This document shows, in pieces, positions 5,169-51,788 of a stretch of DNA of 64,000 nt (position 1 is its first letter; every line of letters begins with the position of its first letter). This DNA comes from Picocystis sp. L7 (taxonomy: Eukaryota > Chlorophyta > Picocystophyceae > Picocystales > Picocystaceae): assembly GCA_020975725.1 (NCBI GenBank), contig QXJR01000024.1, positions 124,001 to 188,000 on the forward strand, read 5' to 3'. Below the pieces are notes generated by a model. The model was not told the origin of the DNA. It made no database searches and was given only the letters and a program-made list of their open reading frames with translations. The position numbers were made by a program, and so were the translations under genes.

Positions 5169-5549
5169 TCACGGGACGTCTTGGTGGGTCTCTTGGACGA
5201 CGGTTTCGTTCCGACACGCTTCGCAACCCACGCCGCCGCAGCGAGGACACAGTCCGAGCTGTTTCCTTTGTTCCTGCGCCACCCATCGGTCCGCTTTCCA
5301 CGCCGCTGCTGCGAGTGCGACGAGTCCCACGCCCACGGCCATCCCTGCGATCTGATCCGCGGTCCACGGCGCGGTGGACAGGCCGCTCCAACCCGCCGCG
5401 ATCGCGGCGTCCCTCTTGGGACGAGGACGTCCGTCTCCCCTGGGATCCGCCTGACTCGTCCTCGTCCTCCTTCCCCTCCGAGCAGCACGCACGCGTTCGC
5501 ACGAAACCGTTGCGATCCGCACGTTCGTGCCCATCGTCGTCGTCCTCAT
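5169..5549 (-). CDS. Small single-pass membrane protein with CxxCxGxGCxxC zinc-binding tail
   Basis: The last 126 residues of a long minus-strand frame look coding: an arginine-rich N-terminus (CERVRAARRGRRTRTS), a hydrophobic segment of about 20 residues (GMAVGVGLVALAAAAW), then RKQLGLCPRCGGVGCEACR. The two CxxC pairs with interposed glycines resemble one half of a DnaJ-type zinc finger, as found in plastid assembly factors related to BSD2 and in several small plastid membrane proteins. Starts at 5549 or 5534 are both possible. The arginine-rich, acid-poor N-terminus could be an organelle transit peptide. Upstream the frame stays open through a satellite repeat, which looks non-coding, so I chose the start nearest the recognisable protein. 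Function is unknown. Confidence 0.5.
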   Translation of the reverse strand: MRTTTMGTNVRIATVSCERVRAARRGRRTRTSQADPRGDGRPRPKRDAAIAAGWSGLSTAPWTADQIAGMAVGVGLVALAAAAWKADRWVAQEQRKQLGLCPRCGGVGCEACRNETVVQETHQDVP

Positions 5550-6558: not shown

Positions 6559-7020
6559 TCAGTCCTGCTGGCCGTGCTGCTTGCGCACCTCTCTCTCGTG
6601 GAGTTCCTTGACCTCCTTTTCTCGGAGCTTCCCGTGTCCGTGCTGGATCCGTTTCATCTTGGCCTCGTGGAGCTCCTCTCTCTCCTTTTCCTTCCGCACC
6701 TGCTTCTCGTGCTCCAGGACTTCCTTGTGCGCTTCGTGCCTTTCGCGTTCGGCGCGTTTCGTCTCTTCCAGCTTGTCTGCATCGCGTCCCGTTCGTTTCC
6801 AAGGTCAGCTCCGTTCGTCCTCCGCGGGATCGGATCGTCCGATCGTCCGTCCTGGTTCCGCGAACCGGACGAGGAAAGGATGGGTTCTTCCTCGATCCTG
6901 GACCCGTGCCCGCTTGCGTTCGTGGTCCCGTCCCTTTCGCACCCCACCTTTCTTCGGGTTGTCCTTGGTGGCGTCCCTTCCACCCACCAAGGACTTGAAC
7001 GCGTCCACTGCATCGCTCAT
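6559..7020 (-). CDS. Small spliced gene, 96-residue charged coiled-coil protein
   Basis: Exon 1 is 7020-6948 on the minus strand and encodes MSDAVDAFKSLVGGRDAT to NPKK plus one base. Exon 2 is 6776-6559 and encodes KLEETKRAERERHEAHKEVL, VRKEKEREELHEAKMKR, GHGKLREKEVKELHEREV and a short tail. The intron (6947-6777, 171 nt) begins GTGGGG, has a CTGAC branch-like word at 6808-6804 and ends GATGCAG. The phase across the junction is exact. Nearly all of the protein beyond residue 25 is a highly charged helix suited to a coiled coil. I do not recognise the family and assign no function. Codon use in both exons is like that of the GC-rich host genes. This is the clearest evidence in the window that the genome has spliceosomal introns. 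Confidence 0.65.
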
Positions 7021-9815
7021 GCTCCGGATGGCTTCCTTTCCATCCAATCGACGTCCACGTCTCTTCCCCTCTTCCCCTCTTCCCCGAGACGTGTCCAGGA
7101 AGAGGCTTCGTCGCCCCTCCCCTTCCTTTCGAAAAGGGAGGGGACCAAAGGGACGGAAGGGGAGGGGTTGGGGGAGATACGATCCATGGCCACCTCCATC
7201 CCCCCCCTCCCGATCGACGTCGGAGGAAGAGGTTACGTGTCGGAACGAAAGTCCTTCTTCCCACCCCCATCCCGAAGGAGACCCTCCATCGCACGAGGGA
7301 ACCGCCCGGACGGATCCATCCCACGGTGGACATCCGTGGAGGATCGTGCACGCGTCCCACGACCCCCCCCCCTCGTGCGGGGACGCGATTGGGTGGGGAA
7401 CGGGGAGGGGAGGGACGCGCACGGACGCGCGCACGACCGCGGGAAGAAGAGAAAAACGCCAACCTTCCCGCGCGAGATGGCGCGACCCGGCCCGACCCAC
7501 GTGGGAGGGATCGGAACGGTACGACGCGAGACACGGACCCATGGAGGGACGACGAATCGCAGGGTCGGAAACGAGGGAACGAGGCCATCGCAAGGGACGG
7601 GTGTCCGAGCACGCGTCGTCCCCGCACGCCCACGGGGATGCGAGAGAGAAGACACGCCCTCGTGCAACGCACCTCCGCGACCCAAAAACGCTCCCGCCCG
7701 TCCATGCCCATTCGTCCCTTGCATCGGATCGAAAGCCGCAAGGAACGATCCCGAGGGATCGGTCTTTCGTCGCGCCCGATTCGCCCCCTCTCCGAACTCC
7801 AACCCCGCGCTGCCGCCTTTCCCGCACGAACGAAAACGATGCATGAAGCATACCATGCTTGTGGAAAAAAAATCAGATCGCAAGACCTTCCGCGAACGTG
7901 CGTCGTCATGCTCTAGGGAAGATCCGTGGAAGATTACGCACGCGATGACGGGAGATCGTCGCAAGAATCGGGGTTGTTGCCCTCGTCCATCTTTCGTGGA
8001 ACGAGGACGTGGGGCTCACGCTGGCACCGTACATCCAGGCGGAAACTCGAGCTGCATGACCAAGGCCACGAATGGGAACCCATGAGGAAACCGTCATGCA
8101 AACCTTCTTGCCAGGTCAGTGCGATCGACCTCTCGCACCGTTGCCGTCGGAGCTCGTCGCTCCGCCCAAAACTCTCGGTGCCCGCTTCGAGCAGGGGGAA
8201 CGATCGGCCGAACTTTCCTTGATTCGAAATCGAACCCTACTCCGTGCGCCGTGCGTTCGTCCGTCGAGCACCTTCGAATCGCGCCGTCCCGGCATGAATG
8301 GCTACGAGCCGTGAACCAATCCCTCGAGGGGAAGAAGCGGCCAAAACCGAGGGGGATGAAAGAAAGAGGTTCCTTTGGAACGCGAGGGAATGCTTGCGTT
8401 TCGTTTCGTGACGCATGCGAAGGTTGACAAGCGGGTTGCGAGCGACAAGTGCATGGTCCGTGCAGATGGGGGTTTGAAAATTTGCCGTGGAATTCGACGC
8501 GAAGATACCAAAGCCTTTGACACGTGAGCGATAGCGAGATCAATGACAGAGAGTGAAGTTTCTTGATGTAGAACGCCCAGCAATGGACGAACCCAAACGG
8601 GAAGCTAACCAATTGTCCATGGGTTCCTTGCGGAATTCTCTTTTGCCTCTTGCACTCGTGCAAGAACATTGTTGGGGGACGGCGTTGCTTCGAACGGCTC
8701 CTCCTTGGGAAAGAAAAAACGGACGTTTGCGACCCTTCAGCTGCTTGCGAGGGGAATGTGCTTGAAGTTCCCGGGGTGGACCCGCACGTCGAGAATTTTG
8801 AAGGAGGAAATGATTTGCAGGAAAAGTAGCGACGCCGGTGGGCTTGAAGACACGTTCGTTTCGAAAGTCGGTTGCCCCACGCATAAGTGAAGGAAATACG
8901 CGTCCCTCACCCCCGCAAAGGATTTGCAAGTTGCGAGGACTCGAGCAAACGAGGAAGGCACACGTCGTCTTTGCCATTCCACTTTGAATGAGCATGTCGC
9001 TCGTGCCTGGACAAGCTCCGCAATCCATGAGACAATGTCGACGCACCGTCCTCCTCCTTGCCGGCGTACAACAAACAAGGACAACGCCTTACTTGTCAAG
9101 GGATGCAACAGTATCGTGGACGTGATCGGAGTGAGTCCCAAAGTTGCTTGAAAATGTCTTGCTCGAGATGCACACAATCACTCTGGGGAATGGGAACACA
9201 GTCCATCATGACGCTCGTTACCGGCGACTAAGACAAGAGAAAACAAGCCGAACTTGGGTGATTTGAATGTCATGTGTACTATGGCGTCAAAAACCGCCCG
9301 CTCGTGCTAGAAAAAGGTGCTTGGAGAACACGATCGCCAAGGCATTTTCCTTTCTTCTTTTCGTAGCTAGCTCGAAAGGACAAAGTGTCTACCGTAACAA
9401 AAGACGCGAACGTGGAGCTTGCCCGATAGTAAAAGTTGTCTCGAGGTGTGTGGGAAAGCACGTGGGAATGACTCGCTAGAGCCGGTCCTTGGCAAAGTTG
9501 CATGTTGCGAGAGTTCAGTCCTATCCATGGAGAAAGTGGATTGCGGGTTCGCCCATGGCAATCGCAAGGGAGGAGACGCTCTCAAATAGAACATCAAAAC
9601 GTTCTCCGAGCTCAACATACTTTTTCGGGGGCCGCACAAGGCCATGCAACCAAAGTCATTCATCCCCAACGAAGCGATGTCGAATGATTTGAGTCACAAA
9701 ATACGGGCTTTTGCTACAAACGGTAGACACGTCGAATGCTTCGTCCTCCTTTAAAATCGTTGGAATCCACGAAAAGACTACGCAAATGGGAATCCACGAA
9801 TGCACCTGGTTCAGT
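7021..9815. other. Promoter-side GC-rich DNA passing into AT-richer DNA, no supported gene
   Basis: About 7021-7850 is CpG-rich and would include the 5' leader and promoter of the minus-strand gene ending at 6559. Beyond about 8100 the base composition falls and no open frame shows domain motifs or consistent coding bias on either strand. Confidence 0.5.
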
Positions 9816-12839: not shown

Positions 12840-13135
12840 TGTTATGGCTGCTCAAGCCCTGGTCCCTAGGAGGTCGAATCCCTTAGGGACCACGACCGAG
12901 TTTCGGTCGAGTACCTTCGAGGAGTATGGGGCCCCCTTGGGGTCCTCGAAGGGCGATGCCCATTCCTGCAGGGAACGATACCGACGAGGACCGATCCCGG
13001 TTTACTGAGAGGTCCTCTGCGGTCGATGAAGCCGCCATTGAGTGGGGATACTCACCACTCATTCTTGCATGTAATACACAACTACGAAGGTGGCAACCCA
13101 CGAACGTATCCAACGTCAACGCCCTACTTCTTCCA
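12840..13135 (+). repeat. Copia family 1 LTR, type 1
   Basis: 296 bp, beginning TGTTATGGCTGC and ending TTCTTCCA just before the primer-binding site at 13136. The outer LTR of the complex. No 5-bp duplication matches the far end at 30673 (left flank ATTAG, right flank GCCAC). Confidence 0.85.
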
Positions 13136-15495
13136 TAGTATCGGAGCCCGTTTGAAGCAGGAGAAAACCAAGAAACAAAACAGAAAACAAGAAAAACAGC
13201 AAAAATAAATGGAAGGAGTGAACTTCGAAAAACTGAACTCCGTGAACTTTCCGATATGGAAACATCGGATGAAAGCACTACTGATTAACAAAGGAGTTGG
13301 TGATGTTATCACAAACAAAGACTGTGAACACTCTGAAAAGGCATTGGCACTCATGTGCTTGTGTGTGAGCAATGAGCATGTGGATTTGGTGGCGAACTCC
13401 GAAAGTGCCCAGCATGTGTGAACAATGCTCGAGGACATGCACGCGGGTCAAACCGCCGCACGCCGTCTCACCCTGCGCAAGGAGTTAACAGGACTTACCA
13501 AGAAACCGGAGGAAAGCATGATGAGCTTCATCATGCGTGGAAAGCAGATCTGCACCAACCTGCGCGCGATCGATGGGTCGGTGACCGAGATCCATCTGAT
13601 CGATGCGATCCTATCTGGCCTGCCGGAGAAATATGCCAACAAGGTAGAGATGCTAACTACCTTGGGAGAGACAGACATGCTCAAAATCCAGAATCAGCTT
13701 CTCCAGGCAGAAAGTGCCATCACCGTGCGAGAGACATCTAGAGGCCAGGTTGCTTTCGCTACGCAGAACCGACGCCCGAAGTTTACCTGCAGCTATTGTG
13801 GCAGAAGTGGACATGGCCGCGAAAAATGCTGGTACCTGAACGGATTGCCTCCACATCTGCAGAAACAACCCAAAAACGATAGGGAAACGGATGAAAAGGT
13901 TGCACTGGTCTCTTATGCTTTTGAATGTGGAGAAGCAAACTGTTTGGAAAACATCTGGATCGTGGACAGCGGCGCCACCGCTCATGTTTGCGCTCAACAA
14001 GCGATGTTTACATCGCTGACACAAGAAGCATCGCCGCAGTCCATCTTGGTTGGAAATGGAGAAGTAGTGCACGCCAAGCAATCTGGAACCGTTGCTCTTA
14101 CTGAAAACGTGGAATTGCAGAAGGTGTTGTTTTGTCCGGAACTACGGGTGAACTTAATCTCGGTTCCAAAACTGATGGAACGTGGATGCAACGTGTACTT
14201 TGAAAATGGGGAATGTGCGATTTGGAAAGGCAAGCAGAAAGTCCTCAGTGCGGTGCAGAAAAATGGTCTTTACGTGATCTGTGGACAAAGTGAAAATGTT
14301 TTCTCAGCCATGGAGTGGCACAGAAAATTGGCTCATTTTGGCCAGATGGAAAAGGTGCACGACACCGTGGTAGGTGTACCAGACAATCTAAAGTGGACCA
14401 AAAACAGCTGTGAAACGTGCATTCAAGCCAAACAAGCCAGATCTGCCATCCCCAAAGGAAATGAAGAAAATCTGGCAAATGTTGGAGAATTGTTGCATAT
14501 GGATTTGATGGGACCCATCACGCCTGCTGGATAGAACGGAGAAAAATACATTGTCAGCATTCTGGACGAGAAGAGCAAACTGGGGTTTGCAAAACCTATT
14601 TGCAACAAATCACAAGCAGCAGCTGTCATCAAAACGGTGATTCGGATGATGGAGAAGCAAACTGGAAATGCTGTGAAGTTTGTGCGTTCGGATCGTGGAA
14701 CCGAATTTCTCAATGCAGAACTACAAAACTTCCTACAAGAAAATGGCATCCAGCAACAGACGAGTGCACCATACACTCCACAGCAAAATGGAAACGCAGA
14801 ACGATATAACAGGACAATTCTGGAAAAAGTGCGCGCAGTGCTCTTGGATGGTGGTCTGGACAAACGTTTTTGGAACTTTGCCGTGGAACATTGTGCTCTT
14901 GTCAGAAACCGTGTGCCTTGCCAACCTCATGGCCGTACACCCTACGAAGCAGTTTTGGGTCAGAAACCGGATGTTTCCAATATGCACATATTTGGTGAAA
15001 CGTGTTATGTGCTTAAGAATCCAACTGAGACAACTGGAAAAATGGATGCAAAAAGTAAGCCAGGTCATTTCGTTGGATTCGAGCCTGGAACAAAAGACAC
15101 GTACCGTATTTGGTGTGGTGAAAAATTGGTACTGTCCAGAAACGTCACTTTTCTTGGTGTGGCAGAGAAACCTACAGCATCGCCAGATGACACTCAGGAA
15201 GACATAACGCTTATGCCTACCGCGTCAGAAACATTGGAACCTGTTTCGTTGGGGGAGAGGCAGAACAGTACAATTGAAAATGTGGAATTACCAGAGCACG
15301 AAACAACCGAGGGAACGGAAGATGCAGAAAACATCAGCAATACGGCTGCTGAAGAAAGGCGCTACCCACTTCGTGAACGTCGTCCACCACAGCCATATTG
15401 GACTGCAAATGTTTGCTTGACCGATCCTTTGACTTTGGATGAGGCTTTAGGTAGCCCCCAGCACGATGATTGGAAACTGGCCTTGCAGGAAGAAG

Positions 15496-15791
15496 TGTAA
15501 GAAGCAGGGTGTTGACTTTGGATACGTTCGTGGGTTGCCACCTTCGTAGTTGTGTATTACATGCAAGAATGAGTGGTGAGTATCCCCACTCAATGGCGGC
15601 TTCATCGACCGCAGAGGACCTCTCAGTAAACCGGGATCGGTCCTCGTCGGTATTGTTCCCTGCAGGAATGGGCATCGCCCTTCGAGGACCCACAGGGGGC
15701 CCCATACTCCTCGAAGGTACTCGACCGAAACTCGGTCGTGGTCCCTAAGGGATTCGACCTCCCAGGGACCAGGGCTTGAGCAGCCTCAACA
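15496..15791 (-). repeat. Copia family 1 LTR, type 2 (minus)
   Basis: 296 bp; on the minus strand it begins TGTTGAGG and ends CTTCTTACA. Type 2 is marked by GGGAACAATACC where type 1 has GGGAACGATACC. AGAAG lies directly to its left. Confidence 0.9.
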
Positions 15792-17259
15792 CTCTCCCCT
15801 GCTCATGGCCTGGTATTCCAACAAGCCCAATGTCTTCAATGCAACTTGCAACTTGGTGGGCCCCAGGGCCTTGGTCAGAAAATCGGCCAGCTGGTCATTT
15901 GTGCTGATGTACTGGAATTTCAGCTCTCCCCGACTCACGCGGTTCCGCACAAAATGATGGGCGATGTCGACGTGTTTCGTACGGGACACCGTCAGAGCGT
16001 TCTTCGTCAAATTCACAGCACCTTGATTGTCACAATGAATGGTGATGCATTGGGCCCCAAATCCAATATCATTCAACACCTTTCTCAGGTACAAAGCTTC
16101 TTTTGCTGCAGAAGCAGCAGCCATATACTCGGCCTCCGTCGTGGACACAGCAACTGTTTTCTGCAATTTTGTCTGCCAGGAAACCAAACTGCCGTGCAAA
16201 GTGAACACGTAGCCAGTTGTGCTACGTCTGGTTTCTTCACAGCCTCCGTAATTGGCATCACAATAGCCTTCCAGCAAACTTGGGGAGCTGTCACCCAGCA
16301 AGATACCAACTGCCTTTGTGCCATTCAGGTATTTCAGGACCCTCTTGGCCACGGCCACGTGATTGCTAGTTGGTGCAGAGACATAGCGGGCCAGACGATT
16401 GGTCACATAAGCTATGTCTGGTCTTGTGGACACTGCAAGGTACATGAGACACCCAACCAATTCCTGGTATGGAAAGTTGGATTCTGTCGCTGTTGCATCT
16501 GAGGTCCATTTTGTTCCAGGTTCCAATGGCGTAGAGACACTGTAGCAATCTGCCATTCTGAACCTTTCCAGCAAGTTGTTCACGTAGGTCTCTTGACTGA
16601 GAAAGACCCTTTTTCCATTTCGATCACGTTCCATTTTGATTCCTAGAAAATGATCCGTGGGCCCAAGGTCTCTGCCTTCAAAGGTGGTCAGCAAGGATTG
16701 CTTGACATTTTCCACTTTTGATCTGCCATTTCCACAAAGCAACAGGTCATCCACGTAGACCATCAGCAACATGTCTTCACCCACGTATAAGCCCGGATCT
16801 GCAGTGGAGCATCTGAATCCAAGCTTTTCCAAAACATCCGTGAGTTTGATGTGCCAGGCACGTGGGGCTTGTTTAAGACCATACAGGGTCTTTTTCAACT
16901 TCCAAACTTTGCCATCCAGCTGAAAACCAGGGGGCATATCCATGTAGATTTCTTCGTCCAGATCACCGTTGAGGAAAGCCGTTTTGATGTCAATGTTTTC
17001 GACTTCCCAGTCTCGTTTAGCAGCCAAGGTCCACAATAAACGTAAAGTGCTTTGTTTTGCCACCGGTGCAAACGTTTCACCAAAATCAATGCCTGCAACC
17101 TGTTTGAATCCTTTGGCAACCAGGCGAGCCTTGAAACGTTGGATGTTCCCATCTTGGTCGTATTTTACCTTGAAGACCCACTTGCAAGGCAGAGTCTTCA
17201 TCTGAGGCGTTCGGTCCACCACATCAAAAACATCCTGCTCGCTCAAACTGGATACTTCT

Positions 17260-17555
17260 TGTTGAGGCTGCTCAAGCCCTGGTCCCTAGGAGGTCGAATC
17301 CCTCAGGGACCACGACCGAGTTTCGGTCGAGTACCTTCGAGGAGTATGGGGCCCCCTTGGGGTCCTCGAAGGGCGATGCCCATTCCTGCAGGGAACGATA
17401 CCGACGAGGACCGATCCCGGTTTACTGAGAGGTCCTCTGCGGTCGATGAAGCCGCCATTGAGTGGGGATACTCACCACTCATTCTTGCATGTAATACACA
17501 ACTACGAAGGTGGCAACCCACGAACGTATCCAACGTCAACGCCCTACTTCTTCCA
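17260..17555 (+). repeat. Copia family 1 LTR, type 1
   Basis: 296 bp, TGTTGAGG to TTCTTCCA, directly after CTTCT, which is the complement of the AGAAG target word. Confidence 0.9.
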
Positions 17556-19915
17556 TAGTATCGGAGCCCGTTTGAAGCAGGAGAAAACCAAGAAACAAAA
17601 CAGAAAACAAGAAAAACAGCAAAAATAAATGGAAGGAGTGAACTTCGAAAAACTGAACTCCGTGAGCTTTCCGATATGGAAACATCGGATGAAAGCACTA
17701 CTGATTAACAAAGGAGTTGGTGATGTTATCACAAACAAAGACTGTGAACACTCTGAAAAGGCATTGGCACTCATGTGCTTGTGTGTGAGCAATGAGCATG
17801 TGGATTTGGTGGCGAACTCCGAAAGTGCCCAGCATGTGTGAACAATGCTCGAGGACATGCACGCGGGTCAAACCGCCGCACGCCGTCTCACCCTGCGCAA
17901 GGAGTTAACAGGACTTACCAAGAAACCGGAGGAAAGCATGATGAGCTTCATCATGCGTGGAAAGCAGATCTGCACCAACCTGCGCGCGATCGATGGGTCG
18001 GTGACCGAGATCCATCTGATCGATGCGATCCTATCTGGCCTGCCGGAGAAATATGCCAACAAGGTAGAGATGCTAACTACCTTGGGAGAGACAGACATGC
18101 TCAAAATCCAGAATCAGCTTCTCCAGGCAGAAAGTGCCATCACCGTGCGAGAGACATCTAGAGGCCAGGTTGCTTTCGCTACGCAGAACCGACGCCCGAA
18201 GTTTACCTGCAGCTATTGTGGCAGAAGTGGACATGGCCGCGAAAAATGCTGGTACCTGAACGGATTGCCTCCACATCTGCAGAAACAACCCAAAAACGAT
18301 AGGGAAACGGATGAAAAGGTTGCACTGGTCTCTTATGCTTTTGAATGTGGAGAAGCAAACTGTTTGGAAAACATCTGGATCGTGGACAGCGGCGCCACCG
18401 CTCATGTTTGCGCTCAACAAGCGATGTTTACATCGCTGACACAAGAAGCATCGCCGCAGTCCATCTTGGTTGGAAATGGAGAAGTAGTGCACGCCAAGCA
18501 ATCTGGAACCGTTGCTCTTACTGAAAACGTGGAATTGCAGAAGGTGTTGTTTTGTCCGGAACTACGGGTGAACTTAATCTCGGTTCCAAAACTGATGGAA
18601 CGTGGATGCAACGTGTACTTTGAAAATGGGGAATGTGCGATTTGGAAAGGCAAGCAGAAAGTCCTCAGTGCGGTGCAGAAAAATGGTCTTTACGTGATCT
18701 GTGGACAAAGTGAAAATGTTTTCTCAGCCATGGAGTGGCACAGAAAATTGGCTCATTTTGGCCAGATGGAAAAGGTGCACGACACCGTGGTAGGTGTACC
18801 AGACAATCTAAAGTGGACCAAAAACAGCTGTGAAACGTGCATTCAAGCCAAACAAGCCAGATCTGCCATCCCCAAAGGAAATGAAGAAAATCTGGCAAAT
18901 GTTGGAGAATTGTTGCATATGGATTTGATGGGACCCATCACGCCTGCTGGATAGAACGGAGAAAAATACATTGTCAGCATTCTGGACGAGAAGAGCAAAC
19001 TGGGGTTTGCAAAACCTATTTGCAACAAATCACAAGCAGCAGCTGTCATCAAAACGGTGATTCGGATGATGGAGAAGCAAACTGGAAATGCTGTGAAGTT
19101 TGTGCGTTCGGATCGTGGAACCGAATTTCTCAATGCAGAACTACAAAACTTCCTACAAGAAAATGGCATCCAGCAACAGACGAGTGCACCATACACTCCA
19201 CAGCAAAATGGAAACGCAGAACGATATAACAGGACAATTCTGGAAAAAGTGCGCGCAGTGCTCTTGGATGGTGGTCTGGACAAACGTTTTTGGAACTTTG
19301 CCGTGGAACATTGTGCTCTTGTCAGAAACCGTGTGCCTTGCAAACCTCATGGCCGTACACCCTACGAAGCAGTTTTGGGTCAGAAACCGGATGTTTCCAA
19401 TATGCACATATTTGGTGAAACGTGTTATGTGCTTAAGAATCCAACTGAGACAACTGGAAAAATGGATGCAAAAAGTAAGCCAGGTCATTTCGTTGGATTC
19501 GAGCCTGGAACAAAAGACACGTACCGTATTTGGTGTGGTGAAAAATTGGTACTGTCCAGAAACGTCACTTTTCTTGGTGTGGCAGAGAAACCTACAGCAT
19601 CGCCAGATGACACTCAGGAAGACATAACGCTTATGCCTACCGCGTCAGAAACATTGGAACCTGTTTCGTTGGGGGAGAGGCAGAACAGTACAATTGAAAA
19701 TGTGGAATTACCAGAGCACGAAACAACCGAGGGAACGGAAGATGCAGAAAACATGAGCAATACGGCTGCTGAAGAAAGGCGCTACCCACTTCGTGAACGT
19801 CGTCCACCACAGCCATATTGGACTGCAAATGTTTGCTTGACCGATCCTTTGACTTTGGATGAGGCTTTAGGTAGCCCCCAGCACGATGATTGGAAACTGG
19901 CCTTGCAGGAAGAAG

Positions 19916-20211
19916 TGTAAGAAGCAGGGTGTTGACTTTGGATACGTTCGTGGGTTGCCACCTTCGTAGTTGTGTATTACATGCAAGAATGAGTGGTGAG
20001 TATCCCCACTCAATGGCGGCTTCATCGACCGCAGAGGACCTCTCAGTAAACCGGGATCGGTCCTCGTCGGTATTGTTCCCTGCAGGAATGGGCATCGCCC
20101 TTCGAGGACCCACAGGGGGCCCCATACTCCTCGAAGGTACTCGACCGAAACTCGGTCGTGGTCCCTAAGGGATTCGACCTCCCAGGGACCAGGGCTTGAG
20201 CAGCCTCAACA
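19916..20211 (-). repeat. Copia family 1 LTR, type 2 (minus)
   Basis: Exact positional counterpart of the LTR at 15496, shifted by 4,420 bp. Confidence 0.9.
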
Positions 20212-21679
20212 CTCTCCCCTGCTCATGGCCTGGTATTCCAACAAGCCCAATGTCTTCAATGCAACTTGCAACTTGGTGGGCCCCAGGGCCTTGGTCAGGA
20301 AATCGGCCAGCTGATCATTTGTGCTGATGTACTGGAATTTCAGCTCTCCCCGACTCACGCGGTTCCGCACAAAATGATGGGCGATGTCGACGTGTTTCGT
20401 ACGGGACACCGTCAGAGCGTTCTTCGTCAAATTCACAGCACCTTGATTGTCACAATGAATGGTGATGCATTGGGCCCCAAATCCAATATCATTCAACACC
20501 TTTCTCAGGTACAAAGCTTCTTTTGCTGCAGAAGCAGCAGCCATATACTCGGCCTCCGTCGTGGACACAGCAACTGTTTTCTGCAATTTTGTCTGCCAGG
20601 AAACCAAACTGCCGTGCAAAGTGAACACGTAGCCAGTTGTGCTACGTCTGGTTTCTTCACAGCCTCCGTAATTGGCATCACAATAGCCTGCCAGCAAACT
20701 TGGGGAGCTGTCACCCAGCAAGATACCAACTGCCTTTGTGCCATTCAGGTATTTCAGGACCCTCTTGGCCACGGCCACGTGATTGCTAGTTGGTGCAGAG
20801 ACATAGCGGGCCAGACGATTGGTCACATAAGCTATGTCTGGTCTTGTGGACACTGCAAGGTACATGAGACACCCAACCAATTCCTGGTATGGAAAGTTGG
20901 ATTCTGTCGCTGTTGCATCTGAGGTCCATTTTGTTCCAGGTTCCAATGGCGTAGAGACACTGTAGCAATCTGCCATTCTGAACCTTTCCAGCAAGTTGTT
21001 CACGTAGGTCTCTTGACTGAGAAAGACCCTTTTTCCATTTCGATCACGTTCCATTTTGATTCCTAGAAAATGATCCGTGGGCCCAAGGTCTCTGCCTTCA
21101 AAGGTGGTCAGCAAGGATTGCTTGACATTTTCCACTTTTGATCTGCCATTTCCACAAAGCAACAGGTCATCCACGTAGACCATCAGCAACATGTCTTCAC
21201 CCACGTATAAGCCCGGATCTGCAGTGGAGCATCTGAATCCAAGCTTTTCCAAAACATCCGTGAGTTTGATGTGCCAGGCACGTGGGGCTTGTTTAAGACC
21301 ATACAGGGTCTTTTTCAACTTCCAAACTTTGCCATCCAGCTGAAAACCAGGGGGCATATCCATGTAGATTTCTTCGTCCAGATCACCGTTGAGGAAAGCC
21401 GTTTTGATGTCAATGTTTTCGACTTCCCAGTCTCGTTTAGCAGCCAAGGTCCACAATAAACGTAAAGTGCTTTGTTTTGCCACCGGTGCAAACGTTTCAC
21501 CAAAATCAATGCCTGCAACCTGTTTGAATCCTTTGGCAACCAGGCGAGCCTTGAAACGTTGGATGTTCCCATCTTGGTCGTATTTTACCTTGAAGACCCA
21601 CTTGCAAGGCAGAGTCTTCATCTGAGGCGTTCGGTCCACCACATCAAAAACATCCTGCTCGCTCAAACTGGATACTTCT

Positions 21680-21975
21680 TGTTGAGGCTGCTCAAGCCCT
21701 GGTCCCTAGGAGGTCGAATCCCTCAGGGACCACGACCGAGTTTCGGTCGAGTACCTTCGAGGAGTATGGGGCCCCCTTGGGGTCCTCGAAGGGCGATGCC
21801 CATTCCTGCAGGGAACGATACCGACGAGGACCGATCCCGGTTTACTGAGAGGTCCTCTGCGGTCGATGAAGCCGCCATTGAGTGGGGATACTCACCACTC
21901 ATTCTTGCATGTAATACACAACTACGAAGGTGGCAACCCACGAACGTATCCAACGTCAACGCCCTACTTCTTCCA
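21680..21975 (+). repeat. Copia family 1 LTR, type 1
   Basis: Exact positional counterpart of the LTR at 17260, shifted by 4,420 bp. Confidence 0.9.
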
Positions 21976-24335
21976 TAGTATCGGAGCCCGTTTGAAGCAG
22001 GAGAAAACCAAGAAACAAAACAGAAAACAAGAAAAACAGCAAAAATAAATGGAAGGAGTGAACTTCGAAAAACTGAACTCCGTGAGCTTTCCGATATGGA
22101 AACATCGGATGAAAGCACTACTGATTAACAAAGGAGTTGGTGATGTTATCACAAACAAAGACTGTGAACACTCTGAAAAGGCATTGGCACTCATGTGCTT
22201 GTGTGTGAGCAATGAGCATGTGGATTTGGTGGCGAACTCCGAAAGTGCCCAGCATGTGTGAACAATGCTCGAGGACATGCACGCGGGTCAAACCGCCGCA
22301 CGCCGTCTCACCCTGCGCAAGGAGTTAACAGGACTTACCAAGAAACCGGAGGAAAGCATGATGAGCTTCATCATGCGTGGAAAGCAGATCTGCACCAACC
22401 TGCGCGCGATCGATGGGTCGGTGACCGAGATCCATCTGATCGATGCGATCCTATCTGGCCTGCCGGAGAAATATGCCAACAAGGTAGAGATGCTAACTAC
22501 CTTGGGAGAGACAGACATGCTCAAAATCCAGAATCAGCTTCTCCAGGCAGAAAGTGCCATCACCGTGCGAGAGACATCTAGAGGCCAGGTTGCTTTCGCT
22601 ACGCAGAACCGACGCCCGAAGTTTACCTGCAGCTATTGTGGCAGAAGTGGACATGGCCGCGAAAAATGCTGGTACCTGAACGGATTGCCTCCACATCTGC
22701 AGAAACAACCCAAAAACGATAGGGAAACGGATGAAAAGGTTGCACTGGTCTCTTATGCTTTTGAATGTGGAGAAGCAAACTGTTTGGAAAACATCTGGAT
22801 CGTGGACAGCGGCGCCACCGCTCATGTTTGCGCTCAACAAGCGATGTTTACATCGCTGACACAAGAAGCATCGCCGCAGTCCATCTTGGTTGGAAATGGA
22901 GAAGTAGTGCACGCCAAGCAATCTGGAACCGTTGCTCTTACTGAAAACGTGGAATTGCAGAAGGTGTTGTTTTGTCCGGAACTACGGGTGAACTTAATCT
23001 CGGTTCCAAAACTGATGGAACGTGGATGCAACGTGTACTTTGAAAATGGGGAATGTGCGATTTGGAAAGGCAAGCAGAAAGTCCTCAGTGCGGTGCAGAA
23101 AAATGGTCTTTACGTGATCTGTGGACAAAGTGAAAATGTTTTCTCAGCCATGGAGTGGCACAGAAAATTGGCTCATTTTGGCCAGATGGAAAAGGTGCAC
23201 GACACCGTGGTAGGTGTACCAGACAATCTAAAGTGGACCAAAAACAGCTGTGAAACGTGCATTCAAGCCAAACAAGCCAGATCTGCCATCCCCAAAGGAA
23301 ATGAAGAAAATCTGGCAAATGTTGGAGAATTGTTGCATATGGATTTGATGGGACCCATCACGCCTGCTGGATAGAACGGAGAAAAATACATTGTCAGCAT
23401 TCTGGACGAGAAGAGCAAACTGGGGTTTGCAAAACCTATTTGCAACAAATCACAAGCAGCAGCTGTCATCAAAACGGTGATTCGGATGATGGAGAAGCAA
23501 ACTGGAAATGCTGTGAAGTTTGTGCGTTCGGATCGTGGAACCGAATTTCTCAATGCAGAACTACAAAACTTCCTACAAGAAAATGGCATCCAGCAACAGA
23601 CGAGTGCACCATACACTCCACAGCAAAATGGAAACGCAGAACGATATAACAGGACAATTCTGGAAAAAGTGCGCGCAGTGCTCTTGGATGGTGGTCTGGA
23701 CAAACGTTTTTGGAACTTTGCCGTGGAACATTGTGCTCTTGTCAGAAACCGTGTGCCTTGCAAACCTCATGGCCGTACACCCTACGAAGCAGTTTTGGGT
23801 CAGAAACCGGATGTTTCCAATATGCACATATTTGGTGAAACGTGTTATGTGCTTAAGAATCCAACTGAGACAACTGGAAAAATGGATGCAAAAAGTAAGC
23901 CAGGTCATTTCGTTGGATTCGAGCCTGGAACAAAAGACACGTACCGTATTTGGTGTGGTGAAAAATTGGTACTGTCCAGAAACGTCACTTTTCTTGGTGT
24001 GGCAGAGAAACCTACAGCATCGCCAGATGACACTCAGGAAGACATAACGCTTATGCCTACCGCGTCAGAAACATTGGAACCTGTTTCGTTGGGGGAGAGG
24101 CAGAACAGTACAATTGAAAATGTGGAATTACCAGAGCACGAAACAACCGAGGGAACGGAAGATGCAGAAAACATCAGCAATACGGCTGCTGAAGAAAGGC
24201 GCTACCCACTTCGTGAACGTCGTCCACCACAGCCATATTGGACTGCAAATGTTTGCTTGACCGATCCTTTGACTTTGGATGAGGCTTTAGGTAGCCCCCA
24301 GCACGATGATTGGAAACTGGCCTTGCAGGAAGAAG
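21680..24335 (+). mobile_element. Copia complex, unit 3: + strand LTR and 5' half
   Basis: Third copy of the plus-strand part: LTR 21680-21975, then gag to integrase up to the AGAAG at 24331-24335. Here the minus LTR that follows belongs to a whole element and not just a 3' half, so the tandem pattern ends. Same breaks as the other two plus halves. Confidence 0.9.
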
Positions 24336-24631
24336 TGTAAGAAGCAGGGTGTTGACTTTGGATACGTTCGTGGGTTGCCACCTTCGTAGTTGTGTATTAC
24401 ATGCAAGAATGAGTGGTGAGTATCCCCACTCAATGGCGGCTTCATCGACCGCAGAGGACCTCTCAGTAAACCGTCATCGGTCCTCGTCGGTATTGTTCCC
24501 TGCAGGAATGGGCATCGCCCTTCGAGGACCCACAGGGGGCCCCATACTCCTCGAAGGTACTCGACCGAAACTCGGTCGTGGTCCCTAAGGGATTCGACCT
24601 CCCAGGGACCAGGGCTTGAGCAGCCTCAACA
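24336..24631 (-). repeat. Copia family 1 LTR, type 2 (3' LTR of the whole element)
   Basis: 296 bp. On the minus strand the polyprotein stop codon lies within the first bases of this LTR (TGTTGA). Carries a small private difference (CCGTCATCGG) from the other type 2 copies. Confidence 0.9.
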
Positions 24632-27600
24632 CTCTCCCCTGCTCATGGCCTGGTATTCCAACAAGCCCAATGTCTTCAATGCAACTTGCAACTTGGTGGG
24701 CCCCAGGGCCTTGGTCAGGAAATCGGCCAGCTGATCATTTGTGCTGATGTACTGGAATTTCAGCTCTCCCCGACTCACGCGGTTCCGCACAAAATGATGG
24801 GCGATGTCGACGTGTTTCGTACGGGACACCGTCAGAGCGTTCTTCGTCAAATTCACAGCACCTTGATTGTCACAATGAATGGTGATGCATTGGGCCCCAA
24901 ATCCAATATCATTCAACACCTTTCTCAGGTACAAAGCTTCTTTTGCTGCAGAAGCAGCAGCCATATACTCGGCCTCCGTCGTGGACACAGCAACTGTTTT
25001 CTGCAATTTTGTCTGCCAGGAAACCAAACTGCCGTGCAAAGTGAACACGTAGCCAGTTGTGCTACGTCTGGTTTCTTCACAGCCTCCGTAATTGGCATCA
25101 CAATAGCCTTCCAGCAAACTTGGGGAGCTGTCACCCAGCAAGATACCAACTGCCTTTGTGCCATTCAGGTATTTCAGGACCCTCTTGGCCACGGCCACGT
25201 GATTGCTAGTTGGTGCAGAGACATAGCGGGCCAGACGATTGGTCACATAAGCTATGTCTGGTCTTGTGGACACTGCAAGGTACATGAGACACCCAACCAA
25301 TTCCTGGTATGGAAAGTTGGATTCTGTCGCTGTTGCATCTGAGGTCCATTTTGTTCCAGGTTCCAATGGCGTAGAGACACTGTAGCAATCTGCCATTCTG
25401 AACCTTTCCAGCAAGTTGTTCACGTAGGTCTCTTGACTGAGAAAGACCCTTTTTCCATTTCGATCACGTTCCATTTTGATTCCTAGAAAATGATCCGTGG
25501 GCCCAAGGTCTCTGCCTTCAAAGGTGGTCAGCAAGGATTGCTTGACATTTTCCACTTTTGATCTGCCATTTCCACAAAGCAACAGGTCATCCACGTAGAC
25601 CATCAGCAACATGTCTTCACCCACGTATAAGCCCGGATCTGCAGTGGAGCATCTGAATCCAAGCTTTTCCAAAACATCCGTGAGTTTGATGTGCCAGGCA
25701 CGTGGGGCTTGTTTAAGACCATACAGGGTCTTTTTCAACTTCCAAACTTTGCCATCCAGCTGAAAACCAGGGGGCATATCCATGTAGATTTCTTCGTCCA
25801 GATCACCGTTGAGGAAAGCCGTTTTGATGTCAATGTTTTCGACTTCCCAGTCTCGTTTAGCAGCCAAGGTCCACAATAAACGTAAAGTGCTTTGTTTTGC
25901 CACCGGTGCAAACGTTTCACCAAAATCAATGCCTGCAACCTGTTTGAATCCTTTGGCAACCAGGCGAGCCTTGAAACGTTGGATGTTCCCATCTTGGTCG
26001 TATTTTACCTTGAAGACCCACTTGCAAGGCAGAGTCTTCATCTGAGGCGTTCGGTCCACCACATCAAAAACATCCTGCTCGCTCAAACTGGATACTTCTT
26101 CCTGCAAGGCCAGTTTCCAATCATCGTGCTGGGGGCTACCTAAAGCCTCATCCAAAGTCAAAGGATCGGTCAAGCAAACATTTGCAGTCCAATATGGCTG
26201 TGGTGGACGACGTTCACGAAGTGGGTAGCGCCTTTCTTCAGCAGCCGTATTGCTGATGTTTTCTGCATCTTCCGTTCCCTCGGTTGTTTCGTGCTCTGGT
26301 AATTCCACATTTTCAATTGTACTGTTCTGCCTCTCCCCCAACGAAACAGGTTCCAATGTTTCTGACGCGGTAGGCATAGGCGTTATGTCTTCCTGAGTGT
26401 CATCTGGCGATGCTGTAGGTTTCTCTGCCACACCAAGAAAAGTGACGTTTCTGGACAGTACCATTTTTTCACCACACCAAATACGGTACGTGTCTTTTGT
26501 TCCAGGCTCGAATCCAACGAAATGACCTGGCTTACTTTTTGCATCCATTTTTCCAGTTGTCTCAGTTGGATTCTTAAGCACATAACACGTTTCACCAAAT
26601 ATGTGCATATTGGAAACATCCGGTTTCTGACCCAAAACTGCTTCGTAGGGTGTACGGCCATGAGGTTTGCAAGGCACACGGTTTCTGACAAGAGCACAAT
26701 ATTCCACGGCAAAGTTCCAAAAACGTTTGTCCAGACCACCATCCAAGAGCACTGCGCGCACTTTTTCCAGAATTGTCCTGTTATATCGTTCTGCGTTTCC
26801 ATTTTGTTGTGGAGTGTATGGTGCACTCGTCTGTTGCTGGATGCCGTTTTCTTGCAGAAAGTTTTGTAACTCTGCATTGAGAAATTCGGTTCCACGATCC
26901 GAACGCACAAACTTCACAGCATTTCCAGTTTGCTTCTCCATCAGCCGAATCACCGTTTTGATGACAGCTGCTGCTTGTGATTTGTTGCAAATAGGTTTTG
27001 CAAACCCCAGTTTGCTCTTCTCGTCCAGAATGCTGACAATGTATTTTTCTCCGTTCTTTCCAGCAGGCGTGATGGGTCCCATCAAATCCATATGCAACAA
27101 TTCTCCAACATTTGCTTGATTTTCTTCATTTCCTTTGGGAATAGCAGATCTGGCTTGTTTGGCTTGGATGCACGTTTCACAACTGATTTTGTTCCACTTT
27201 AGATTGTCTGGTACACCTACCACGGTGTCGTGCACCTTTTCCATCTGGCCAAAATGAGCCAATTTTCTGTGCCACTCCATGGCTGAGAAAACATTTTCAC
27301 TTTGTCCACAGATCACGTAAAGACCATTTTTCTGCACCGCACTGAGGACTTTCTGCTTGCCTTTCCAAATCGCACATTCCCCATTTTCAAAGTACACGTT
27401 GCATCCACGTTCCATCAGTTTTGGAACCGAGATTAAGTTCACCCGTAGATCCGGGCAAAACAGCACCTTCTGCAATTCCAGGTTTTCCGCAAGAGCAACG
27501 GTGCCAGATTGCTTGGCGTGCACTACTTCTCCATTTCCAACCAAGATGGACTGCGGCGATGCTTCTTGTGTCAGCGATGTAAACATCGCTTGTTGAGCGC

Positions 27601-28381
27601 AAACATGAGCGGTGGCGCCGCTGTCCACGATCCAGATGTTTTCCAAACAGTTTGCTTCTCCACATTCCAGAGCGTAAGAGACCAGTGCAACCTTTTCATC
27701 CGTTTCCCTATCGTTTCTGGGCTGTTTCTGCAGATGTGGAGGCAATCCGTTCAGGTACCAGCATTTTTCGCGGCCATGTCCACTTCTGCCACAATAGCTG
27801 CAGGTAAACTTCGGGCGTCGGTTCTGCGTAGCGAAAGCAACCTGGCCTCTAGATGTCTCTCGCACCGTGATGGCACTTTCTGCCTGGAGAAGCTGATTCT
27901 GAATTTTGAGCATATCTGTCTCTCCCAAGGTAGTTAGCATCTCTACCTTGTTGGCATATTTCTCCGGCAGGCCAGATAGGATCGCATCGATCAGATGGAT
28001 GTCGGTCACCGACCCATCGATCGCGCGCAGGTTGGTGCAGATCTGCTTTCCACGCATGATGAAGCTCATCATGCTTTCCTCCGGTTTCTTGGTAAGTCCT
28101 GTTAACTCCTTGCGCAGGGTGAGACGGCGAGCGGCGGTTTGACCCGCATGCATGTCCTCGAGCATGGTCCACGCATGCTGCGCAGATTCAGAGTTCGCCA
28201 CCAAATCCACATACTCATTGCTCACACACAAGCACATGAGTGCCAATGCCTTTTCGGAGTGTTCACTGTCTTTGTTTAAGATGGCTTCTCCAACTCCCTT
28301 GGTGACCAGCAAAGCTTTCATCCGATGTTTCCATATCGGGAAATTTTCCGAGTTCAGTTTCTCGAAGTTCACTCCTTCCAT
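24626..28381 (-). CDS. Copia family 1 Gag-Pol polyprotein, 1,251 residues
   Basis: One uninterrupted frame in classic Copia order: gag (SENFPIWKHRMKALL near the N-terminus), CCHC knuckle (CSYCGRSGHGREKCW, about residue 196), aspartic protease (WIVDSGATAHVCA, about 250), pre-integrase zinc region (WHRKLAHFGQ and CETCIQAKQ), integrase core (MDLMGPI, VRSDRGTEF, APYTPQQNGNAERYNR), reverse transcriptase (KARLVAKGFKQVAG, YVDDLLLCGNG) and RNase H (GYCDANYGG, STTEAEYMAAASAAKEALYL, VDIAHHFVRNR). The integrase-before-reverse-transcriptase order defines Ty1/Copia. The start codon lies about 110 bp inside the 5' LTR boundary, after the primer site and a homopolymer-rich leader. Confidence 0.95.
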   Translation of the reverse strand: MEGVNFEKLNSENFPIWKHRMKALLVTKGVGEAILNKDSEHSEKALALMCLCVSNEYVDLVANSESAQHAWTMLEDMHAGQTAARRLTLRKELTGLTKKPEESMMSFIMRGKQICTNLRAIDGSVTDIHLIDAILSGLPEKYANKVEMLTTLGETDMLKIQNQLLQAESAITVRETSRGQVAFATQNRRPKFTCSYCGRSGHGREKCWYLNGLPPHLQKQPRNDRETDEKVALVSYALECGEANCLENIWIVDSGATAHVCAQQAMFTSLTQEASPQSILVGNGEVVHAKQSGTVALAENLELQKVLFCPDLRVNLISVPKLMERGCNVYFENGECAIWKGKQKVLSAVQKNGLYVICGQSENVFSAMEWHRKLAHFGQMEKVHDTVVGVPDNLKWNKISCETCIQAKQARSAIPKGNEENQANVGELLHMDLMGPITPAGKNGEKYIVSILDEKSKLGFAKPICNKSQAAAVIKTVIRLMEKQTGNAVKFVRSDRGTEFLNAELQNFLQENGIQQQTSAPYTPQQNGNAERYNRTILEKVRAVLLDGGLDKRFWNFAVEYCALVRNRVPCKPHGRTPYEAVLGQKPDVSNMHIFGETCYVLKNPTETTGKMDAKSKPGHFVGFEPGTKDTYRIWCGEKMVLSRNVTFLGVAEKPTASPDDTQEDITPMPTASETLEPVSLGERQNSTIENVELPEHETTEGTEDAENISNTAAEERRYPLRERRPPQPYWTANVCLTDPLTLDEALGSPQHDDWKLALQEEVSSLSEQDVFDVVDRTPQMKTLPCKWVFKVKYDQDGNIQRFKARLVAKGFKQVAGIDFGETFAPVAKQSTLRLLWTLAAKRDWEVENIDIKTAFLNGDLDEEIYMDMPPGFQLDGKVWKLKKTLYGLKQAPRAWHIKLTDVLEKLGFRCSTADPGLYVGEDMLLMVYVDDLLLCGNGRSKVENVKQSLLTTFEGRDLGPTDHFLGIKMERDRNGKRVFLSQETYVNNLLERFRMADCYSVSTPLEPGTKWTSDATATESNFPYQELVGCLMYLAVSTRPDIAYVTNRLARYVSAPTSNHVAVAKRVLKYLNGTKAVGILLGDSSPSLLEGYCDANYGGCEETRRSTTGYVFTLHGSLVSWQTKLQKTVAVSTTEAEYMAAASAAKEALYLRKVLNDIGFGAQCITIHCDNQGAVNLTKNALTVSRTKHVDIAHHFVRNRVSRGELKFQYISTNDQLADFLTKALGPTKLQVALKTLGLLEYQAMSRGEC

Positions 28382-28475
28382 TTTGTTTTTGCTTTTCTCT
28401 GTTTTCCTTTTTTTTTTTTTGCGTTTTCTTTCTGTTTAGTTTTTCAGTTTGTTTTCTGTTTTCTTCTGCTTCAAA

Positions 28476-28490
28476 CGGGCTCCGATACCA
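28476..28490 (-). other. Primer-binding site of Copia family 1
   Basis: Directly after the 5' LTR the minus strand reads TGGTATCGGAGCCCG, close to the TGGTATCAGAGC site that Copia elements of plants use to pair with the 3' end of initiator methionine tRNA. The plus-strand copies have TAGTATCGGAGCCCG. Confidence 0.75.
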
Positions 28491-28784
28491 TGTAAGAAGC
28501 AGGGTGTTGACTTTGGATACGTTCGTGGGTTGCCACCTTCGTAGTTGTATATTACATGCAAGAATGAGTGGTGAGTATCCCCACTCAATGGCGGCTTCAT
28601 CGACCGCAGAGGACCTCTCAGTAACCGGGATCCCTCCTCGTCGGTATCGAACACTGCAGGAATGGGCATCGCCCTTCGAGGACCCAGAGGGGCCCCATAC
28701 TCCTCGAAGGTACTCGACCGAAACTCGGTCGTGGTCCCTAAGGGATTCGACCTCCCAGGGACCAGGGCTTGAGCAGCCTCAACA
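28491..28784 (-). repeat. Copia family 1 LTR, type 3 (5' LTR of the whole element)
   Basis: 294 bp; shares AGTGTTCGATACC with the LTR at 30378 and not with its own 3' partner. Confidence 0.9.
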
Positions 28785-30673
28785 CCACTTCGTGAACGTC
28801 GTCCACCACAGCCATATTGGACTGCAAATGTTTGCTTGACCGATCCTTTGACTTTGGATGAGGCTTTAGGTAGCCCCCAGCACGATGATTGGAAACTGGC
28901 CTTGCAGGAAGAAGTATCCAGTTTGAGCGAGCAGGATGTTTTTGATGTGGTGGACCGAACGCCTCAGATGAAGACTCTGCCTTGCAAGTGGGTCTTCAAG
29001 GTAAAATACGACCAAGATGGGAACATCCAACGTTTCAAGGCTCGCCTGGTTGCCAAAGGATTCAAACAGGTTGCAGGCATTGATTTTGGTGAAACGTTTG
29101 CACCGGTGGCAAAACAAAGCACTTTACGTTTATTGTGGACCTTGGCTGCTAAACGAGACTGGGAAGTCGAAAACATTGACATCAAAACGGCTTTCCTCAA
29201 CGGTGATCTGGACGAAGAAATCTACATGGATATGCCCCCTGGTTTTCAGCTGGATGGCAAAGTTTGGAAGTTGAAAAAGACCCTGTATGGTCTTAAACAA
29301 GCCCCACGTGCCTGGCACATCAAACTCACGGATGTTTTGGAAAAGCTTGGATTCAGATGCTCCACTGCAGATCCGGGCTTATACGTGGGTGAAGACATGT
29401 TGCTGATGGTCTACGTGGATGACCTGTTGCTTTGTGGAAATGGCAGATCAAAAGTGGAAAATGTCAAGCAATCCTTGCTGACCACCTTTGAAGGCAGAGA
29501 CCTTGGGCCCACGGATCATTTTCTAGGAATCAAAATGGAACGTGATCGAAATGGAAAAAGGGTCTTTCTCAGTCAAGAGACCTACGTGAACAACTTGCTG
29601 GAAAGGTTCAGAATGGCAGATTGCTACAGTGTCTCTACGCCATTGGAACCTGGAACAAAATGGACCTCAGATGCAACAGCGACAGAATCCAACTTTCCAT
29701 ACCAGGAATTGGTTGGGTGCTTGATGTACTTGGCAGTGTCCACAAGACCAGACATAGCTTATGTGACCAATCGTCTGGCCCGCTATGTCTCTGCACCAAC
29801 CAGCAATCACGTGGCCGTGGCCAAGAGGGTCCTGAAATACCTGAATGGCACAAAGGCAGTTGGTATCTTGCTGGGTGACAGCTCCCCAAGTTTGCTGGAA
29901 GGCTATTGTGATGCCAATTACGGAGGCTGTGAAGAAACCAGACGTAGCACAACTGGCTACGTGTTCACTTTGCACGGCAGTTTGGTTTCCTGGCAGACAA
30001 AATTGCAGAAAACAGTTGCCGTGTCCACGACGGAGGCCGAGTATATGGCTGCTGCTTCTGCAGCAAAAGAAGCTTTGTACCTGAGAAAGGTGTTGAATGA
30101 TATTGGATTTGGGGCCCAATGCATCACCATTCATTGTGACAATCAAGGTGCTGTGAATTTGACGAAGAACGCTCTGACGGTGTCCCGTACGAAACACGTC
30201 GACATCGCCCATCATTTTGTGCGGAACCGCGTGAGTCGGGGAGAGCTGAAATTCCAGTACATCAGCACAAATGACCAGCTGGCAGATTTTCTGACCAAGG
30301 CCCTGGGACCCACCAAGTTGCAAGTTGCATTGAAGACATTGGGCTTGTTGGAATACCAGGCCATGAGCAGGGGAGAGTGTTGAGGCTGCTCAAGCCCTGG
30401 TCCCTAGGAGGTCGAATCCCTTAAGGACCACGACCGAGTTTCGGTCGAGTACCTTCGAGGAGTATGGGGCCCCCTGTGGGTCCTCGAGGGGCGATGCCCA
30501 TTCCTGCAGTGTTCGATACCGACGAGGACCGATCCCGGTTTACTGAGAGGTCCTCTGCGGTCGATGAAGCCGCCATTGAGTGGGGATACTCACCACTCAT
30601 TCTTGCATGTAATATACAACTACGAAGGTGGCAACCCACGAACGTATCCAAAGTCAACGCCCTGCTTGTTACA
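28785..30673 (+). mobile_element. Copia family 1, + strand 3' half with LTR
   Basis: Plus-strand reverse transcriptase and RNase H (open to 30383) followed by the 3' LTR. It begins with 130 bp (28785-28914) that repeat the end of the plus 5' half (15366-15495), then continues through AGAAGTATCC into the 3' half. It is the natural partner of the plus 5' half at 12840, separated from it by the whole array. Confidence 0.9.
30378..30673 (+). repeat. Copia family 1 LTR, type 3 (outer right LTR)
   Basis: 296 bp from TGTTGAGG to TTGTTACA. Preceded by the same purine tract as in the whole element; the polyprotein stop again falls in its first bases. Confidence 0.9.
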
Positions 30674-51603: not shown

Positions 51604-51788
51604 TCAATCCTTTTTTAAATCTCGTCGGAGAAGCTTTTCCCCCTTTCGAGTGCGTTCCTGCTCCGTTTTCCAGTTCGCGCCTGCAGGTGGTTGCCAAGTT
51701 GGTTCTGAGTCCCCACCTGAACGATCGAAAGGATTGGAGAGTCGGGACCTGGTCGTCGGTGGGTCTGACCCGGATGAGGCCCAACTAG

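Follow-up and report, generated by a model that had tools for sequence, protein, structure and literature searches.

How did a retrotransposon come to form a tandem repeat in which every unit is a whole element laid out as two opposed halves? This question is raised by a locus in Picocystis sp. L7, within a stretch of 64,000 nucleotides on contig QXJR01000024.1 (here called the window). Self-comparison gave direct repeats at 12840, 17260 and 21680, a period of exactly 4,420 bp, with positions 12840-21680 matching 17260-26100 at 99.85% identity over 8,841 bp and without gaps. Three 5' halves of 2,656 bp on the plus strand (A1-A3) alternate with 3' halves of 1,764 bp on the minus strand (B1-B3), and the whole structure ends at 30,673. 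Its parts are as follows.

12840..15495, plus strand: A1, 5' LTR and 5' internal half (gag to integrase), terminating in AGAAG
15496..17259, minus strand: B1, 3' LTR and 3' internal half (reverse transcriptase, RT), with its CTTCT end at the return joint
17260..19915, plus strand: A2, second 5' half
19916..21679, minus strand: B2, second 3' half
21680..24335, plus strand: A3, third 5' half
24336..28784, minus strand: E6, full-length element (4,449 bp), with B3 (24336-26099) as its 3' half
28785..28914, plus strand: repeat of the terminal 130 bp of A (CCACT...AGAAG), abutting the 5' LTR of E6
28915..30673, plus strand: P3, right-hand 3' half with 3' LTR
15491..15495, 19911-19915 and 24331-24335, plus strand: AGAAG, target-duplication copy at the forward joint, as read at the joints
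17255..17259 and 21675-21679, plus strand: CTTCT, the same target duplication inverted, at the return joint, as read at the joints

The copy of the A end gives an alignment of 131 rather than 130 positions because one extra base matches by chance. The units run head to tail with the single period of 4,420 and a mutual identity of 99.8%, and this length and identity exclude a chance origin of the repeat. The initial annotation had described 4,420-bp head-to-tail units of opposed halves that always switch at AGAAG and always return through CTTCT into a plus-strand LTR, and both descriptions were borne out. Its units of exact length are indeed equal in length, with no indels, but they are not identical: they differ by substitutions at 11 columns (9, 4 and 9 in the pairwise comparisons). 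Similarly, the halves alternate as it claimed, except that the third B half continues into the full-length minus-strand element E6.

All three plus-to-minus joints (15495/15496, 19915/19916 and 24335/24336) read ...GGAAGAAG followed directly by TGTAAGAAG..., and both return joints (17259/17260 and 21679/21680) read ...ATACTTCT followed directly by TGTTGAGG...; the forward joints thus carry AGAAG in three of three cases and the return joints CTTCT in two of two. The length of the unit (2,656 + 1,759 + 5 = 4,420) is that of one element plus one target duplication, with the LTRs opposed and the duplication copies inverted. Forward and return joints are the two ends of a single 5-bp target duplication left by one opposed insertion. 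The outer flanks of the entire structure, ATTAG and GCCAC, do not match, which implies that the host element, here called P, was itself rearranged.

The parent is a Ty1/copia LTR retrotransposon. Pfam found gag, Pol beta-barrel, integrase-core and SH3 domains in the A1 pieces and gag, Pol beta-barrel and integrase-core domains in the 5' piece of E6, the gag domain of both being the copia type (PF14223); RVT_2 was found in B1 (PF07727 at 3e-73) and in P3. Integrase lies upstream of RT (the A half has rve and SH3, the B half RVT_2), and in other copies of the family the 5' part continues straight into the 3' part. The LTRs of the parent family begin with TG and end with CA, and insertion is accompanied by a 5-bp target duplication: in the stretches fetched and read by eye, matching 5-bp flanks border 11 of the 14 LTR-to-LTR elements that lie outside the window and are uninterrupted; of the three exceptions, two are on contig 4 and the third, at C3:86840, lies between opposed 3' halves. 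The elements at C11:406988 and C3:920051, themselves interrupted, likewise lack matching flanks. Gag, integrase and RT had thus been assigned correctly to the two halves, while the protease and RNase H also assigned to them gave no family match in these pieces at E 0.001.

A family that repeatedly inserts into its own copies at one nucleotide could also place two independent insertions, in opposite orientation, at the same site. Another insertion does lie only 5 bp off (C14:204356/204357), and a further one, at CCACT, lies 125 bp off at the same locus as the array. However, the CCACT joint is at a different site from AGAAG, and the insertion points of other nests, read by eye in the fetched stretches, are scattered along the element. 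With up to 3 mismatches allowed, the joint sequences had 3 and 2 matches in the 20.5-Mb genome, all inside the window, whereas the uninterrupted site had 32, two of them on the redundant start of contig 18. Joints confined to this locus against 32 intact sites indicate that a single integration underlies the array and that the site is no self-targeting hotspot; these genome-wide counts rule out self-targeting at AGAAG, and two separate hits on the same nucleotide are exceedingly improbable.

The initial annotation had offered, as an equal alternative, an assembler looping through the repeat graph of a single nest; such a loop would write two or three units for one. Nests of this kind do cause trouble in the assembly, contig 18 opening (1-8500) with a repeat of C3:86030-94538, but this redundancy consists of gaps (24 gap openings and 0 mismatches in 3,979 columns; 1 gap and 0 mismatches in 4,535), whereas the units differ by substitutions only. 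The differences between units are therefore unlike the errors of this assembly, as judged from the one redundancy examined. Moreover, every unit has substitutions of its own, and 9 of the 11 variable columns carry a state missing from the other compared copies, two such states being common to units 2 and 3. Unit-private substitutions combined with zero indels disfavor a simple assembler loop, which we regard as improbable and less well supported than the annotation had it; the sequence evidence favors an array that is physically present in the chromosome.

The geometry has a second possible source. If the cDNA of one element used its own AGAAG site as integration target, in the inverting mode, the product would be a 4,420-bp circle with two opposed LTRs, and the circle or a multimer of it could then enter a resident copy by homologous recombination and be captured as tandem units. 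This would account for the exact geometry (a whole element plus 5 bp, with joints at AGAAG and its complement), and head-to-tail units would arise naturally. Among the outcomes of Ty autointegration described in PMC4751563 is an inverted two-LTR circle, and inversion circles also appear in PMC2644782. These Ty1 and retroviral circles share with the array the unit geometry (an entire element with one part inverted), the opposed LTRs and the joints at one internal target site, but they are described as extrachromosomal DNA, whereas the array is assembled chromosomal sequence whose halves differ in LTR haplotype.

Two LTRs made from one cDNA would be identical at first, and on this the LTRs of the array point both ways. 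The A and B LTRs share the core state 133G, not carried by any of 42 further LTRs, and the rare states 135A and 136A, each seen in 3 of 42; the shared 133G can be read as the LTR pair of one element, in favor of a circle and against a nest. Yet they differ at positions 29, 275 and 282, all three polymorphic across the family, which is beyond what new mutations alone would give. Further, a single cDNA source, with both halves equally old, would not lead us to expect more private states in A (26/2,623) than in B (2/1,759, or 6 with the states that P3 shares included). The significance of this excess depends on the counting (p 0.0001 to 0.064). It is p 0.0007 to 0.036 once three marks found only in A1 are set aside, and weakens to p 0.001 to 0.064 when the count is confined to the internal 5' and 3' sequence; among 17 controls (elements or pieces of them), 2 show a contrast between their halves at p<0.05, with the sign reversed. 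Nor would one cDNA be expected to combine the two in-frame stops of A1 with a B1 frame open across 490 codons. At what we take, from its position, to be the primer-binding site, A1 reads TAG where most other compared copies read TGG.

For Ty1, the title of a 2006 paper by Garfinkel et al. suggests a link to a central polypurine tract. Here the AGAAG site matches the polypurine tract at 7 of 11 positions, while other positions reach 8 and 9; since AGAAG is not the best match, a central flap, and with it a central polypurine tract at this site, is unsupported. Taken together, the LTR haplotypes and, less firmly, the mutation counts argue against the circle, which we consider an unlikely source of the units. 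That an inverted autointegration circle, in general a dead end of reverse transcription, was captured by a resident copy in a Copia cluster that appears centromere-like, and was there amplified head to tail, is a slightly more doubtful proposition still. If it were true, failed retrotransposition would have seeded a chromosomal tandem repeat, and autointegration would be linked to the birth of repeats.

A further observation not predicted by a circle concerns the right-hand 3' half. The B halves equal P3 from AGAAG to +810, and divergence begins at +811: B1 and P3 show 0 differences in the first 804 aligned 3'-half bases and 9 in the next 658 (Fisher p about 7e-4, for a boundary picked post hoc from the data). 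The next nearest full copy has 13 differences from B1 across the same 804 bases, and four states in the tract are common to B and P3 and missing from all other compared copies. A stretch of identity that gives way to divergence can be the trace of an exchange between inverted halves. Runs of such length are no rarity in the family, however, and this one ranks third of 153 pairs. Such exchange has taken place elsewhere in this genome: on contig 4 (C4:210066-219564), two inverted full copies of the same family have a 2,344-bp identical tract in common and swapped target duplications, and undoing the inversion pairs ATAGA with ATAGA and GAATG with GAATG. Contig 4 shows directly a completed inversion by recombination between inverted family copies. 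Like the array, it combines exchange between inverted copies with a long tract of identity; it differs in that two separate elements took part in a single inversion and exchanged their 5-bp flanks, whereas in the array the exchange would have occurred inside a nest and then been multiplied.

Our preferred explanation, to which we give a somewhat better than even chance, is a real array produced by one opposed nested insertion, homologous recombination between inverted 3' halves and then unequal exchange. We infer the following order of events, with the nested element (M) and its host (P) taken as separate elements. M, of Copia type, would have inserted in opposite orientation at AGAAG within its relative P and duplicated 5 bp of target, as is usual. 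Homologous recombination between the 3' halves of the two elements, which now faced each other, would next have inverted the inner part, by crossover or template switch at about +686 to +811; the product would be a head-to-tail series of a 5' half of P type, a hybrid 3' half and another 5' half, and the far insertion joint would become the return joint of CTTCT and LTR. With the A and B segments in direct repeat, unequal sister exchange could subsequently raise the number of units to three or more, and these would then gain mutations of their own. A simple inversion predicts an M-type A2, yet A1-A3 are near-identical, and an extra step is therefore needed: the copies were homogenized, the M-type one was lost, or the template switched a second time inside the LTR. 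The unmatched outer flanks of the structure, too, count against this reading. The route first proposed (nested insertion, inversion or template switching, amplification) remains the best supported, on the strength of the joints, the tract shared by B and P3, contig 4 and, less firmly, the greater number of private states in A and its two stops against the open frame of B, with its sequence of events probable rather than observed.

The right-hand end would need one more insertion. The two LTRs of E6 have 12 differences between them, and its 5' half has 94 differences (substitutions and gaps) from A3 but none within the last 284 bp before AGAAG, which suggests that E6 is a recombinant. A further minus-strand element (M') may have inserted 125 bp upstream at CCACT and swapped 3' halves with one of the B halves of the array, which would make E6 a hybrid. 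A one-step 130-bp target duplication of E6 is ruled out, the return joints having the 5-bp form, CTTCT followed by LTR, and not the 130-bp form.

That no described element has this organization, as had been stated, does not hold as worded, the geometry of the unit being that of the inverted two-LTR autointegration circle in PMC4751563; a chromosomal array with this geometry was not found among the titles and abstract openings listed from the open-licence literature. Among chromosomal repeats, a close likeness is to the maize centromeric retrotransposon tandem repeats CRM1TR and CRM4TR (PMC3648361), which likewise derive from a retrotransposon of centromere-like clusters and show local homogenization and gene conversion, as the array here may also have undergone. 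The monomers of those repeats are LTR-UTR segments, averaging 696 and 819 nt at the two CRM1TR loci (187 full-length monomers), whereas the unit here is a whole element as two opposed halves, in three copies. Gene searches gave their best named hits in green algae and in plants, and a smut fungus, considered at first on genome size and GC, was set aside as the source; the plastid marker RuBisCO large subunit had no match in the assembly. Copia-rich centromeres of green algae (PMC11005252) are likewise Copia clusters in a small green-lineage genome, to which the present region, which appears centromere-like, may be compared.

Thus, the parts of this locus are ordinary, and the resulting repeat of opposed halves is unusual. 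Its joints indicate, at the level of single bases, how one opposed nested insertion could become the first few units of a tandem repeat through exchange between inverted copies; this is a concrete candidate for one of the steps by which satellite-like arrays arise where Copia elements abound in centromere-like regions.

Within an assembly of 20.5 Mb in 30 contigs, the window (C22:124001-188000) carries a Copia-type structure at 12840-30673, arranged from left to right as follows:

A1, plus strand: 5' half (LTR, gag to integrase)
B1, minus strand: 3' half (reverse transcriptase, LTR)
A2, plus strand: 5' half
B2, minus strand: 3' half
A3, plus strand: 5' half
E6, minus strand, 24336-28784: full-length element whose 3' half is B3
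duplicate of the final 130 bp of A
P3, plus strand, 28915-30673: 3' half

The unit period is exactly 4,420 bp, made up of an A half of 2,656 bp, ending in AGAAG, and a B half of 1,764 bp that includes the 5 bp CTTCT (the complement of AGAAG); A and the other 1,759 bp of B together amount to one whole element. The right end of E6 abuts CCACT, which in A lies 125 bp upstream of AGAAG; the 5' half of E6 belongs to another subtype. The outer flanks of the whole structure do not match each other.

A whole-genome search allowing up to 3 mismatches found the forward joint (A to B at AGAAG) three times and the return joint (CTTCT to LTR) twice, all in the window and neither outside it, while matches to the uninterrupted site numbered 32, including two within the window and another two at the redundant start of contig 18. 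In the fetched stretches, the insertion points of other nested copies were, by eye, scattered along the element, although one of them (C14:204356) is only 5 bp from the AGAAG site. It is thus most likely that both joints trace to one opposed integration, as the initial annotation proposed.

A gap-free alignment of the three units has 11 variable columns. At nine of these, a state occurs that no other compared copy has (0 of 42, 16, 22 or 24, depending on position): three marks are private to unit 1, two to unit 2 and one adjacent pair to unit 3, and two are common to units 2 and 3; at the remaining two columns, both states are present in other copies. Marks of this kind are not what an assembler looping through a single physical copy would be expected to write. 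The redundant start of contig 18, the sole fault examined in this assembly, has gaps and zero mismatches. There, C18:1-8500 (L035) duplicates the Copia nest at C3:86030-94538 (L009, L010), as redundant or misjoined assembly. That fault does show that Copia nests are not always cleanly assembled here, and the true number of units may differ from the assembled number.

From AGAAG to +810, B1 and P3 do not differ at all; the next 954 bases hold 19 differing sites. When the first 804 aligned bases of the 3' half are compared, 13 differences separate B1 from its next nearest full copy, and other full copies differ from one another at a median of 26 sites. The identical run ranks third longest among 153 pairs, so other copies also share long runs; it is special for its position, between inverted neighbors within one nest. 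Contig 4 (C4:210066-219564; L016, L017) carries a completed inversion produced when two inverted members of the same family underwent exchange: both are full length, their 5-bp target duplications are swapped, and they share an identical tract of 2,344 bp. Inverted arms also surround nested copies at C3:84378-93776 (L009, L010) and C11:405054-417160. In the former, a full element whose 5-bp flanks do not match stands between opposed 3' halves that are 98.9% alike over 2,462 bp, possibly another product of such exchange; the latter has 1,558-bp arms (C11:405054-406611 and C11:415603-417160; L025, L026) that are 99.9% identical, flank beyond the LTR included, around a Copia nest. Inverted-copy exchange thus recurs in these clusters and, with a single insertion, explains the joints in the window: an element M would have inserted in opposite orientation at AGAAG inside a relative P, and exchange between the inverted copies would then have formed the joints. 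Since E6 ends at CCACT and has a 5' half of another subtype, a second insertion (at CCACT) and a further exchange have to be added.

Two observations count against this nest-and-exchange reading. One is the mismatch of the outer flanks; the other is that A1, A2 and A3 are alike, stops included, although a simple inversion would put M's own 5' half in the A2 position. To make all three A copies alike, one more step is needed: either another switch, this time within the LTR, or unequal exchange in which the M-type copy was lost. LTR positions 5-6 read GA, the family state, in A2 and A3 and AT in A1, and position 29 is A in all three A copies and G in B; a switch somewhere from position 6 to position 29 would account for this pattern, but a later mutation in A1 may do so equally well.

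The unit also matches the geometry of an inverted two-LTR autointegration circle, and the LTR state 133G, common to A and B and found in 0 of 42 other LTRs, favors one parent. We nevertheless regard a captured circle as a less likely source of the array unit than nesting and exchange: the A and B LTRs are unlike at three positions that vary within the family, A carries stops while B is open, and private states are more numerous in A than in B (p 0.0001 to 0.017 in a first count; 0.0007 to 0.036 once three marks found only in A1 are set aside; 0.001 to 0.064 for internal parts only). Because two of 17 control elements or element pieces also differed between halves (p < 0.05), the 3' half being more diverged in both, an age difference between A and B is treated as suggestive only.

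Elsewhere in the window, the flanking genes encode a RING/RRM protein like NOT4 and a choline/ethanolamine kinase, each with one 96-97% match to a JGI-sourced protein; the next best among the matches listed have 54 and 68% identity, respectively, and the best named ones are from green algae for the RING/RRM protein and plants for the kinase, with oomycetes and fungi also present. The source is most likely a small alga of the green lineage. The best named matches of the reverse transcriptase half at 15789-17258 are EukProt entries labeled Pavlova lutheri (three at 95-97%, one at 72%), a name absent from the matches listed for either flanking gene; they may represent contamination in the EukProt data set or a shared element. 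A different Copia element at 51787-56675 has 309-bp LTRs that are 100% identical and an open frame of 1,401 aa, and is therefore probably a recent insertion; an inverted LTR-like stretch at 33735-34030 is diverged (74%).

Family matches occur on at least 18 of the 30 contigs (a lower bound, as 40 of 110 candidates were scored), mostly, by eye, in one cluster per contig, with two separate clusters on contig 3. This clustering recalls the centromeres built of Copia elements that are described for other green algae (PMC11005252). The window probably holds an unusual product of ordinary parts: a young tandem repeat of opposed Copia halves within a Copia-rich cluster.
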